This document shows positions 44,353 to 47,608 of a stretch of DNA of 64,000 bases, one piece after another. The translations under genes were made by a program, and so were the position numbers. How positions within the stretch are numbered: the stretch's first letter is position 1; each line of letters opens with the position of its first letter. Under the pieces are notes generated by a model. The model was not told the origin of the DNA. It made no database searches and saw only the letters and a list, made by a program, of their open reading frames with translations. Source of the DNA: Burkholderiales bacterium (GTDB lineage Bacteria > Pseudomonadota > Gammaproteobacteria > Burkholderiales > Burkholderiaceae_D); the NCBI GenBank assembly GCA_016177875.1, contig JACOUL010000026.1:1-64000 (forward strand), read 5' to 3'.

Positions 44353-46722
44353 ATGAAAAATATAAACATGATCAATACGCTCCAAGCGCACCTGCGTGCC
44401 GTCTTGGTCGCGTCCGGTTTATGTGCCGTAACCGCAGGCGCATTCGCCGTCCCCGCGCGTCCCGTCCCGCTGACCTTGAAGCAGGCCAACGGCAGCTTGA
44501 TTCAGGCCCAGCTAAAGGGCGATGAATATCTGAATTGGATGGAAACATCCAACGGCGATGCATTCTTGTTCAATAAGAATTCACGGCGCTATGAATACGC
44601 CGTCGTGGGCAAAATCAACGGCAGATCAGCCCTGGTGCCGTCCGGCGTAGCAGTCGGCACGGGAGCAGTTCCGGCAATGGCTGCCACGCCCGGCGTTACC
44701 AATCGAGCCGCGCTGAACGCTTTATGGCAAGAAATGCGCAAGGCGCTTGAAGTCGTTAAACCGCAATCACAAAAGACAGCAACGACCGCCACGACGATTC
44801 AACCGAAATCGGCCGCCACGGCAAACATGACGCTGTCCGCAACCGTCAGCGGCACGACGCAGCAGGAAGTCCCCTTACTCGTTGTGCTGGTCGACTACAC
44901 CGACGACAAGATTCAAAGCGCGGACAGCACGTGGCAACAAAAGGTTTTCGGCGCAAGCGCAGGCACGGTCAACGACTACTATCGCGAAGTCTCCGGCGGC
45001 CGATTCAAATACACGCCTGTCTCCGAAACGCAAGGCACGGCCAACGATGGTGTCGTGCACGTGCAGATGAATTATGCCAACCCGATTCCCTACAACCAGC
45101 AAGACCCGCAGACGCAAATCATCATCCGCAATACCTTGATGGACATCCTGAGCAAGGCAGATGCATACGTGAATTTCGCTCAGTTCGATAAGAATGCCGA
45201 CGGCCAAGTCGATTCCAAAGAGTTGTCGGTCCTGTTTATTCTGGGCGGCAAAGAACTTGCCTACCGCGACGCCAAATATCCGGACTATCCTGCCGACAGC
45301 CGCGGCACATGGGGGCAGCGCGGCATGTTTTACCCTGAAAACCGCCCGGTCTATGACAACGTGCGCATTCCCGAATATGCAATCGTCGGCGAGCGTCATG
45401 GCGACCACGACGCAACCATCGGCGTCATGACGCATGAAATCGCGCATCTGACCTTCGACCTCCCTGATCTCTACGACCCCTGGAGCAACTTCACAACATG
45501 GGACTTGATGGCGGGCGCATGGGGTCAAAAAGCCGACGATACCTGGGGCGGCATGACGCCGCCGCACTTGAGCGCCTTCTGCAAGATCAAAGCGGGATTC
45601 ATCGCGCCGGCGGAAGTGGAACTAATGTACGCGCCGAACAATATGAGCCTGTACGCGCCGCTCAACGCATCCTACAACGCCATCAAAATCCTGACGAATA
45701 ACACCAGTGATTTCATGATCGCCGAACAGCGTCGCCTGGAAGGATACGACCGTGGCGTCACGATGGATTCCAGCTTGTATGGCCGGTACGGCGTGATGAT
45801 TTACCGCAGCGACGTCAACTACGTCAACCCGTATCCGATCTCCGTCGTACACCTCATGCGAGCCAACGGCTCCGACGACAACCGAGCGGGATTTACTCTG
45901 ACGGACATGTACTACACAGGAAACAACACGCGCTTTGCGCCCAATACCACGCCGAACTCCACCATCGGCGGTGTCAACGTGGGTGCAGTGGTCGAAAACA
46001 TTGCCGCTTCCAACGGCGTAATGACATTGACCATCCGACGCGATGATCCGAACGGATACAACTGCAAGCAATACGTCGCGACCAACAGCGCGCACGTCAC
46101 CGCCAACCGCGCTTACGGCACCACCTCGGGCACCTTCTACAAAACCACCACCTACTATGCCAAAGGTTCCAACCAGAACCTCGGTACCTCCGGCTCCACC
46201 AGCACGACATTGAAAGAAGGCCCTGCGGGATATTTCGTCAAGGGCAGCTGCCCGGCTAACCAAAAACCGGTCGTGCAGTCGATCACGCGGAACACCAACG
46301 CCAACATTACCGACGTGACCATCGCCGTGTCCGATGCGGAACGCGATCTCGTGCGCGTGGAATATCAACTCGATAACGGCACCTGGACGAAAGCGGCCGG
46401 CACCGGCAATCCGACCTCGGGTAATTTCTTCTACGTAGCGAAATTCGTCGGCCTTGCAAACGGCAATCACCAGCTTAACGCCCGCGCATTCGACGCCGCC
46501 GGCAACGTGAGCGCCGTGTACGGTCAATCTTTCACACTAGGGGCCGCAAGCTGTTATACCGCCACCAACAGCGCCCATGTCTCCGCCGGCCGCGCCACGG
46601 TGAAATACAGCTCGCTGTATTACGCCATCGGCTCGAACAATTATCTCGGCGGCAGCGGCACCACCACTTCGCTGCAATTGCAAAGCACGAACTACTGGAA
46701 GAAGGTCACCAGCTGTCCGTAA
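44353..46722 (+). CDS. Secreted M6-family metalloprotease (immune inhibitor A-like)
   Basis: 789 residues. A signal peptide (cleavage near AGAFAVPAR) leads a propeptide and an M6 catalytic domain with the zinc motif HEIAH at 361-365, followed by the expected DLPDLYD. An EF-hand-like calcium loop DKNADGQVDSKE lies at about 279-290. The C-terminus holds two copies of a Cys-bounded module of about 60 residues (571-634, 734-789; each with ATNSAHV near the start and SCP at the end), separated by an Ig-like domain (637-732). It should be an extracellular protease with surface or polymer binding. Confidence 0.9.
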   Translation: MKNINMINTLQAHLRAVLVASGLCAVTAGAFAVPARPVPLTLKQANGSLIQAQLKGDEYLNWMETSNGDAFLFNKNSRRYEYAVVGKINGRSALVPSGVAVGTGAVPAMAATPGVTNRAALNALWQEMRKALEVVKPQSQKTATTATTIQPKSAATANMTLSATVSGTTQQEVPLLVVLVDYTDDKIQSADSTWQQKVFGASAGTVNDYYREVSGGRFKYTPVSETQGTANDGVVHVQMNYANPIPYNQQDPQTQIIIRNTLMDILSKADAYVNFAQFDKNADGQVDSKELSVLFILGGKELAYRDAKYPDYPADSRGTWGQRGMFYPENRPVYDNVRIPEYAIVGERHGDHDATIGVMTHEIAHLTFDLPDLYDPWSNFTTWDLMAGAWGQKADDTWGGMTPPHLSAFCKIKAGFIAPAEVELMYAPNNMSLYAPLNASYNAIKILTNNTSDFMIAEQRRLEGYDRGVTMDSSLYGRYGVMIYRSDVNYVNPYPISVVHLMRANGSDDNRAGFTLTDMYYTGNNTRFAPNTTPNSTIGGVNVGAVVENIAASNGVMTLTIRRDDPNGYNCKQYVATNSAHVTANRAYGTTSGTFYKTTTYYAKGSNQNLGTSGSTSTTLKEGPAGYFVKGSCPANQKPVVQSITRNTNANITDVTIAVSDAERDLVRVEYQLDNGTWTKAAGTGNPTSGNFFYVAKFVGLANGNHQLNARAFDAAGNVSAVYGQSFTLGAASCYTATNSAHVSAGRATVKYSSLYYAIGSNNYLGGSGTTTSLQLQSTNYWKKVTSCP

Positions 46723-46742: not shown

Positions 46743-46770
46743 GATGTAAGCGTGGCGTCACGCTTACATC
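46743..46770 (+). terminator. Hairpin after the M6 protease, probable terminator
   Basis: Perfect 12-bp stem GATGTAAGCGTG with its complement and a GCGT loop, about 20 nt after the protease stop. No U-tract follows, so termination may be weak or factor-dependent. Confidence 0.5.
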
Positions 46771-46863: not shown

Positions 46864-46917
46864 GCCCAACGCAGAGCTGACCCACGTAACGCGTGGGTGT
46901 CGAGCGACATGTTAAGC
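46864..46917 (-). mobile_element. Integron attC site
   Basis: Read on the minus strand it begins with GCTTAAC (RYYYAAC) and ends with GTTGGGC (GTTRRRY), 54 bp apart. The two 7-nt boxes pair fully with two G-T wobbles. Next come two 5-nt non-complementary spacers (ATGTC and TCTGC), then an inner stem GCT/GAC/CCACG with extrahelical C and AC bases on one side, and a TTA-containing loop. This is the full R-spacer-L layout of attC, and it touches the stop of the preceding gene. Confidence 0.7.
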
Positions 46918-46918
46918 A

Positions 46919-47272
46919 TTATGTACACTCCACTTCATTCGAGCAGCAAGGGCACACAGCAATCTTAGAGACCGAGATAACCAAGGCATTACAATGGCTG
47001 CACTTTCCGGACTGGCATAAGTGCTCCCAGTCCACGTGCTCGACCTCTGGAGCGACCAAACCCACAAGTTCGACATATGGTTCTTCATCTGTCTGACCTT
47101 CAAAACGCCCGAAGGCGGAAACGGCCAGACACCATCGGTCATATTGGAACTCACCATTGGGGTATGTCTTGTCCTCATTTCGTGACCGAAGAGCTTTATA
47201 GATTACTTCAATCAGCTCCCGTTCAGATAGCCCAGACAAGTTTTCTACTAGTTCAGAATGCGATGGCTTCAT
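46919..47272 (-). CDS. Gene-cassette protein with C-terminal zinc ribbon, unknown
   Basis: 117 residues from the ATG at 47272, three bases after a GTTAAGC core site; a longer frame to 47314 would cross that site. The N-terminal half is helical (SELVENLSGLSERELIEVI). The C-terminus has CSHC-x(n)-CPCC, a zinc-ribbon pattern. The stop lies directly at the attC R'' box. This fits a promoterless integron cassette gene. No function can be assigned, as is usual for such cassettes. Confidence 0.6.
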   Translation of the reverse strand: MKPSHSELVENLSGLSERELIEVIYKALRSRNEDKTYPNGEFQYDRWCLAVSAFGRFEGQTDEEPYVELVGLVAPEVEHVDWEHLCQSGKCSHCNALVISVSKIAVCPCCSNEVECT

Positions 47273-47275
47273 GAT

Positions 47276-47282
47276 GCTTAAC
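47276..47282 (-). other. GTTAAGC core recombination site at cassette 5' boundary
   Basis: GTTAAGC on the minus strand, matching GTTRRRY, immediately before ATC-ATG of the cassette gene. Recombination between the first G and T here and in GTTGGGC of the attC would excise about 420 bp containing just this gene. It may be the end of an attI, of another attC, or of a secondary site. Confidence 0.55.
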
Positions 47283-47608
47283 TTTAATTTCTGGAGTCTA
47301 TATTGTCTCTGCAACCTGGCAACCGCGCCACAAGCTTTTACGATTAGTTTAAGCCAAACCCGCTCGCAATCTATGTCTTCAGGCAGCTAGCTTCGTTTTC
47401 GTACAGTGTGAACACACCCACAAAATCCAGCACCACCGGATACGCGCCTCGATAAGCGAGCGACACTCTACGGCGACGCTGAGGGGTTGACGTAGGGATC
47501 AACCTTGTCCTGTTCCGCAGGATCGTTGCGGGTACAGACATCTCAGACTTCGAGTACGCAAATTACGTTTGCTTGTTCCATGTTGACCGGCTCTATGCGA
47601 GATCCTCG
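47283..47608. other. Non-coding region upstream of the cassette
   Basis: 326 bases with no convincing gene. It contains GCTTAAAC at 47354-47347 (minus strand), an imperfect R''-like box about 70 bp before GTTAAGC, but without a matching inner stem. A short hairpin GGTTGA...TCAACC lies at 47485-47504. No integrase reading frame is present nearby. Confidence 0.4.

Follow-up and report, generated by a model that had tools for sequence, protein, structure and literature searches.

The window (the whole 64-kb stretch of DNA that was analysed) contains a genuine lone integron gene cassette. The favoured account of its position, to which a probability of roughly 60% is assigned, is that an integrase encoded on contig C27 of the same genome acted in trans to place the circular cassette in an attI-like site that is likely a diverged attI platform. 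The resident integrase was probably the enzyme that placed it; the action in trans, the common descent of the window site with attI copies, expression of the cassette gene and present activity are all inferred. With regard to the genus, there is strong anatomical evidence that each genome carries several attI platforms and that cassettes are exchanged between them, the activity itself being untested.

The cassette and its attC site

The features of the locus, all on the minus strand, are given in window coordinates:

46870..47281, (-), the single cassette as a mobile unit of 412 bp, bounded by the two G^TT crossover points and delimited from the sequence
46864..46917, (-), attC of 54 bp, from the box-plus-fold scan and covariance models R1 and R2
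46911-46917, (-), R″ box of attC, GCTTAAC
46864-46870, (-), R′ box of attC, GTTGGGC
Interior of attC, two 5-nt spacers; GCT-C-GA with one extrahelical base (C); hairpin ACCCACG/CGTGGGT; AGC
46919..47272, (-), cassette gene of 117 aa with a C-terminal CxxC...CPCC zinc-ribbon-like motif, seen by eye
47276..47282, (-), 5′ core box GTTAAGC, from the cassette's own attC and the exact reverse complement of R″
47280..47324, (-), attI-like site of 45 nt ending AATTAAAG^TT, from a matrix of own-genome sites; not significant with attI profile R3
46743..46770, (-), terminator-like hairpin with a 12-bp stem, in the flank between the cassette and a convergent metalloprotease gene

Read 5′ to 3′, the cassette consists of a short leader, the 117-aa ORF, a single base following its TAA stop, and attC, with the GTTAAGC box three bases before the ATG. 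The 5′ GTTAAGC complements R″, while the present R′ box, GTTGGGC, pairs with R″ only via two G-T pairs, and this combination is interpreted as the scar of attC recombination at G^TT. Cassette C4b of the same genome has a like complementarity (GTTAGCT / AGCTAAC). The sequence GCTCGAC..CC / GGTCAG is common to the window attC and other attC sites of the genome. In single-strand DNA folding the attC as it now stands has an open R stem (bottom strand, -9.2 kcal/mol) and an unremarkable energy (z -1.21 and -0.91); once its original box is reinstated, as in the circular form, the bottom-strand R stem closes fully at -12.3 kcal/mol.

The window attC was the sole match of a box-plus-fold scan of the 64 kb. 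Covariance model R2, derived from 32 attC rows taken at 9 loci in 9 genomes and excluding the window attC (one row is from the window's own genome, and a few rows are weak), matched it over the full length of 1-59 at 34.0 bits (E 2.6e-5 over 64 kb), with 12.4 bits for the runner-up. The narrower model R1 missed the site under default filters and recovered it only once these were switched off, at 22.4 bits (E 1.3e-4 in 3 kb), and an Rfam gathering scan of the window gave no match. The earlier note had placed the gene, the GTTAAGC box and the 54-bp element correctly; the scan and R2 agree with its description of a complete attC with R box, 5-nt spacers, L stem and extrahelical base, and the R2 search is a covariance-model search of the kind that it proposed as a check. 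The locus has the two sequence hallmarks of an integron gene cassette, an attC with boxes, L stem and extrahelical base and a 5′ box that complements R″; for its presumed mobility the only pointer is indirect, the identical cassettes on two platforms of congener G004. With one attC, it does not meet the CALIN definition of IntegronFinder 2.0, whose default threshold is at least two attC without intI (in the part of PMC9024848 that was available), nor that of a complete integron with intI beside the array, intI being on C27.

As far as sequence comparison reaches, the cassette gene is an orphan. Its product matched no Pfam family at E ≤ 1 and only one NCBIfam entry far under cut-off (16 versus 150 bits), in keeping with the original description of a product without known function. 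No relatives were found in 399 genomes of the order examined, own genome aside, or in the genome_contigs, plasmids and viral_contigs collections with single-sequence queries, which reach only close relatives. A single-sequence structure model was unusable (mean pLDDT 45.6). The first cassette at the C15 attI of the same genome (L071 1-1290) encodes a small protein with CxxC pairs, as judged by eye. Convergent with the window cassette is a gene for an M6-family metalloprotease (44353-46722; TIGR03296, 123.9 bits), and for the hairpin between them one was found versus 0.9 expected in shuffles. The flanking DNA had no match in five congeners; serA searches in the same five were empty even at a laxer threshold and are uninformative on the empty site.

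Integrase, attI copies and cassettes in the genus

The genome of the window (G000; 3.78 Mb, 55 contigs) has one TIGR02249 match over cut-off, an integron integrase of 456 bits at C27:334-1278; the contig ends 333 bp upstream of intI, beyond an attI and the first part of an ORF. Contig C30 (L043, 4069 bp) carries several successive tyrosine-recombinase-like frames at which the integrase profile stays below cut-off. Near the window cassette, tblastn with the genome's own IntI gave only a chance-level match (E 5.1) in 44-52 kb, in line with the statement in the earlier note that no integrase gene lies nearby. The note's reading of an orphan cassette therefore holds for a single cassette without adjacent intI, but an integrase gene is present on C27; given that gene and the attI-like insertion point, "orphan" describes a location and not necessarily a function. 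Integron integrases at E ≤ 1e-80 occur in 14 of 145 genomes of the family examined, including G000 and four of its five congeners. A second integron integrase is seen in congener G003 at C10:185-1123 (L017, L031), on a 3.1-kb contig.

An attI profile (R3) was built from seven sites, namely the five beside intI in G000-G004, C4a and C15, and six genomes were searched with the best 150 candidates scored in each and sites of 42 bits or more called strong. Strong sites number at least two in G001, three in G002, two in G003, three in G004 and four in G000, and four of the five relatives have at least two to three copies each, one of them beside intI. Among the strong sites, at least 14 in number, six lie away from intI in congeners and outside the training set, and C4:102261 of G000 is a seventh such independent site. 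The genome of the window has up to seven attI-like sites, the weaker ones being those on C39 (23.1 bits) and C11 (19.5 bits), both real-looking by eye, and a candidate on C20 (15.3 bits). In G005, which is 87% complete, no intI at E ≤ 1e-80 and no strong attI among the candidates scored were found.

The repeated attI unit in congeners is up to ~300 bp long, in two halves of ~150 bp. Homology among copies at different places typically begins near -300 (copies were compared up to GTT only), pairs involving G001 C11 having at most ~210 bp in common; within G000, C11 and C4a share 223 bp (79%) and C15 and C39 share 190 bp (81%). Some platforms are orthologous: G002 786k and G004 2472k are 86% identical over 4.5 kb upstream, and G002 4135k and G003 C70 78.5% identical over 2.7 kb including attI. 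No intI fragments were detected beside the dispersed copies within up to 2.5 kb on each side (less at contig ends), the only other IntI matches there (28-30% identity) being to a tyrosine recombinase in a ~2.47-kb insert of G002. The copies of this insert are ~96% identical, its recombinase is ~29% identical to IntI, and it sits beside the 786k, 144k and intI-linked sites (L104, L030/L064, L113), directly after two strong attI copies and 57 bp after a partial one.

A CTGT-N8-ACAG motif, which we take to be a LexA box, occurs without mismatch at -274/-275 of the attI beside intI in G001-G004. Of the relatives' six strong dispersed units, four likewise carry a perfect copy (G002 786k and 4135k, G004 2472k and 903k) and the other two (G003 C70, G001 C11) a copy with one mismatch. 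The four perfect copies match the motif at the intI promoter, and an SOS link may therefore exist at these platforms, though they lack intI. Within G000 the motif has one mismatch at C27, C4a and C11, a level attained by 7-12% of shuffles, and more than one at C4b, C15 and C39.

Cassettes follow the attI-like sites with a consistent polarity. There were 51 attC matches (E ≤ 1) in 22 loci, 47 of them in 12 loci with an attI-like site that is strong in nine and weak or partial in three (G000 C11, G003 C64, G002 144k). All 47 are downstream of attI and on the same strand; "downstream" is partly by choice, since the analysed stretches mostly extend further in that direction, and the strand agreement is unaffected. 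The remaining four matches come from contigs C14 and C45, close to their ends; the attI search there reached 9.3 bits at best and detected no site. The last ~170 bp of these two contigs (L070, L072), next to the cassettes, are the same sequence, perhaps the start of an insertion sequence, and this common end is probably the cause of the array assembly break. At least 400 bp of downstream DNA is available at 10 of the strong copies; R2 attC matches are found at nine of the ten, and at the tenth, C4b, an attC was seen by eye. The match at G002 4135k is weak (18-21 bits), the first attC found at two G002 copies lies 4.8-5.4 kb away, beyond the insert, and the 717 bp at G000 C39 contain an ORF without a convincing attC (best 13 bits). 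Counts of attC across whole genomes are minimum values because the best 150 of 1482 candidates were scored in G000, the window attC not being among them; the attI search of the six genomes and the search that gave the attC loci of G002 were subject to a like cap.

Sharing between platforms is seen in G004, which is assembled as one contig with one intI. The first 405 bp after its 2472k attI are, base for base, positions 508-912 after its 903k attI; the identical stretch begins right after GTT and ends in the attC R′ box, and the next base differs. In addition, the intI array opens with 460 bp that recur unchanged inside the 2472k array. The three sites are separated by 1.57 and 1.30 Mb along the sequence, the identical 405-bp cassettes being 1.57 Mb apart. 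Some arrays that appear to lack an integrase could be split arrays, as draft assemblies break in or near them (C14, C15, C27, C39, C45, G001 C11 and C16, G003 C41 and C70). This objection does not apply to G004 or to the internal positions C4a, C4b, C11 and the window.

The proposition that all orphan cassettes occupy an attI fails, as at least three G002 attC loci, at 1.63, 1.69 and 3.27 Mb, have no recognisable attI; cassettes therefore land elsewhere too. The attC sites concerned (L137 5984-6618, L138 3200-3268, L139 3582-3651) are candidates for attG-type insertions.

The insertion point of the window cassette

The window cassette adjoins an attI-like site ending AATTAAAGTT, the same ending as that of the C27 attI. 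This 10-mer has 6 copies in 3.78 Mb, the C27 attI and the window junction among them, versus 8 copies in the genome for its reversed control. A 45-nt matrix of the C4a, C4b, C11 and C27 sites ranks the junction first of 127,912 window positions, and in 182 kb of own-genome DNA only 6 of 362,946 positions at least equal it: the four training sites, the junction and one other. True attI sites of the own-genome type score 34-54 bits in leave-one-out comparisons versus 17.8 at the junction, and with the 10-nt core removed the junction is equalled or bettered at 328 of 363,266 positions. Ungapped, the junction has 26/45 identities to C4a and 26/45 to C4b, and its 44/88 to C4a is the best in the window. 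The stretch from -90 to -46 shows no likeness to the genome's own attI sites, and there is no ungapped likeness to the C15 attI. Likeness over 45 nt to the intI-linked attI of relatives is weak, with 2174 (G002), 2181 (G001) and 152 (G004) positions as good. R3 gave no match at E ≤ 10 in the whole 64 kb, and 2.8 bits (E 2) at the junction in 15 kb with filters off. No unit-length homology (200-300 bp) between the junction surroundings and the other platforms was found by blastn. Upstream of the cassette there is no LexA-type box, the best candidate having two mismatches. As the top rank comes with a low score, dependence on the core and a weak R3 result, the site is termed attI-like, and its descent from attI is likely and unproven. 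On sequence evidence alone, a diverged copy of the dispersed attI platform would be the most likely target, given that attI sites with cassettes and without intI recur in this genome and its congeners.

According to the proposed mechanism, the C27-encoded integrase would have inserted a free circular cassette beside serA, at the attI-like site. It would have recombined the cassette attC, as a folded bottom strand, with the G^TT of the target; the 5′ end would then carry TTAAGC from the cassette, and the 3′ R′ box TTGGGC from the target.

The same enzyme may instead have used an ordinary secondary genomic site, in the manner of attG, the likeness to attI then reflecting enzyme tolerance and not descent. 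This possibility, which is doubtful and cannot be set aside, draws on precisely the weaknesses of the junction, namely the R3 score of only 2.8 bits, the faint likeness past the 10-nt core and the missing 200-300 bp unit, and on the non-attI cassettes of G002, such as that of L137 with its probable junction CGCAAG/GTTCGCC. It does not readily accommodate the first rank of the junction among window positions or the identities to C4a and C4b, and attG integration is spread over many loci (PMC12444791, as far as that source was accessible). Less plausible still is the remnant of a second, once complete integron that has lost intI and all but one cassette through decay; the attI-like stretch upstream of the cassette is in the right orientation for this, but there is no trace of intI in 44-52 kb or within up to 2.5 kb on each side of the other dispersed platforms, and the nearest ORF of any size upstream (136 aa) stops ~330 bp short of the junction. 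A chance palindrome beside an ordinary gene is already disfavoured to the point of being negligible, for although the unexceptional single-strand folding energy and the R1 miss under default filters would suit it, the margin of the R2 score over the next match, the exact complementarity of the boxes and the attI-like junction would not.

Proposed distributed attI platforms and known systems

Insertion by the resident integrase at a diverged platform would place the window cassette in a wider arrangement. It is somewhat better supported than not that several separate, partly orthologous attI platforms, up to ~300 bp long, depend on a single integrase gene in the Paucimonas lineage (on two such genes in one genome), every platform having cassettes of its own and cassettes moving from one platform to another; activity has not been tested. 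If true, the integrase-less arrays are working branches of one integron and not wrecks, and the window's lone cassette is an outlying or decaying branch. One enzyme with several entry sites would create several first positions at once, in varied chromosomal settings. Integrons are otherwise presented as a single integrase with one adjoining entry site, where mainly the first cassettes of one array are expressed (PMC9024848 and PMC11023631, in the portions available). The arrangement would also give attC clusters without integrase an origin that can be tested. In the open PMC literature, no account of multiple attI dispersed in one chromosome was found. Mobilisation in trans of CALIN cassettes by a functional IntI is already known (PMC12444791, PMC9668308, from partial texts); it is dispersed attI copies that are unreported in the literature searched, which was limited to open PMC. 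They could have escaped notice because IntegronFinder 2.0 does not detect attI sites outside class 1; such sites are poorly described (both from the accessible sections of PMC9024848).

The window locus resembles the CALIN and single-attC loci of the IntegronFinder classification in having an attC without a neighbouring integrase. It differs in that the cassette adjoins an attI-like site, and in the genus several integrase-less arrays begin at clear attI copies, whereas no attI is reported at CALINs in what could be consulted of PMC9024848 and PMC12444791. The Xanthomonas study of 2025 places CALINs at conserved places away from intI, and finds that attC clusters without integrase keep relatively conserved positions as opposed to scattered attG insertions (PMC12444791, partial text); attI copies at those cluster positions would account for the conservation. 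Sedentary chromosomal integrons are likened to the present system by attC sites that are alike within the genome, by the orphan gene and by the CTGT-N8-ACAG upstream of intI, perfect in G001-G004 and with one mismatch at C27. They typically have one attI close to the integrase (PMC9024848, in the excerpt available), whereas the genomes examined here combine several attI units with a single intI (two in G003).

Delta-attI cassettes likewise carry an attI portion outside its usual location, a partial attI replacing attC at the 3′ end of the cassette (PMC12901181, available in part). In the window, by contrast, the attI-like site is on the 5′ side and attC is complete. Integration of cassettes outside the integron by IntI, termed attG insertion, was reportedly demonstrated by Loot et al. 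in 2024. The attG is also described in the accessible portion of PMC12901181. A cassette integrated outside the integron by IntI is what the window locus would have in common with attG insertion, and the difference is that the window junction resembles the host's own attI.
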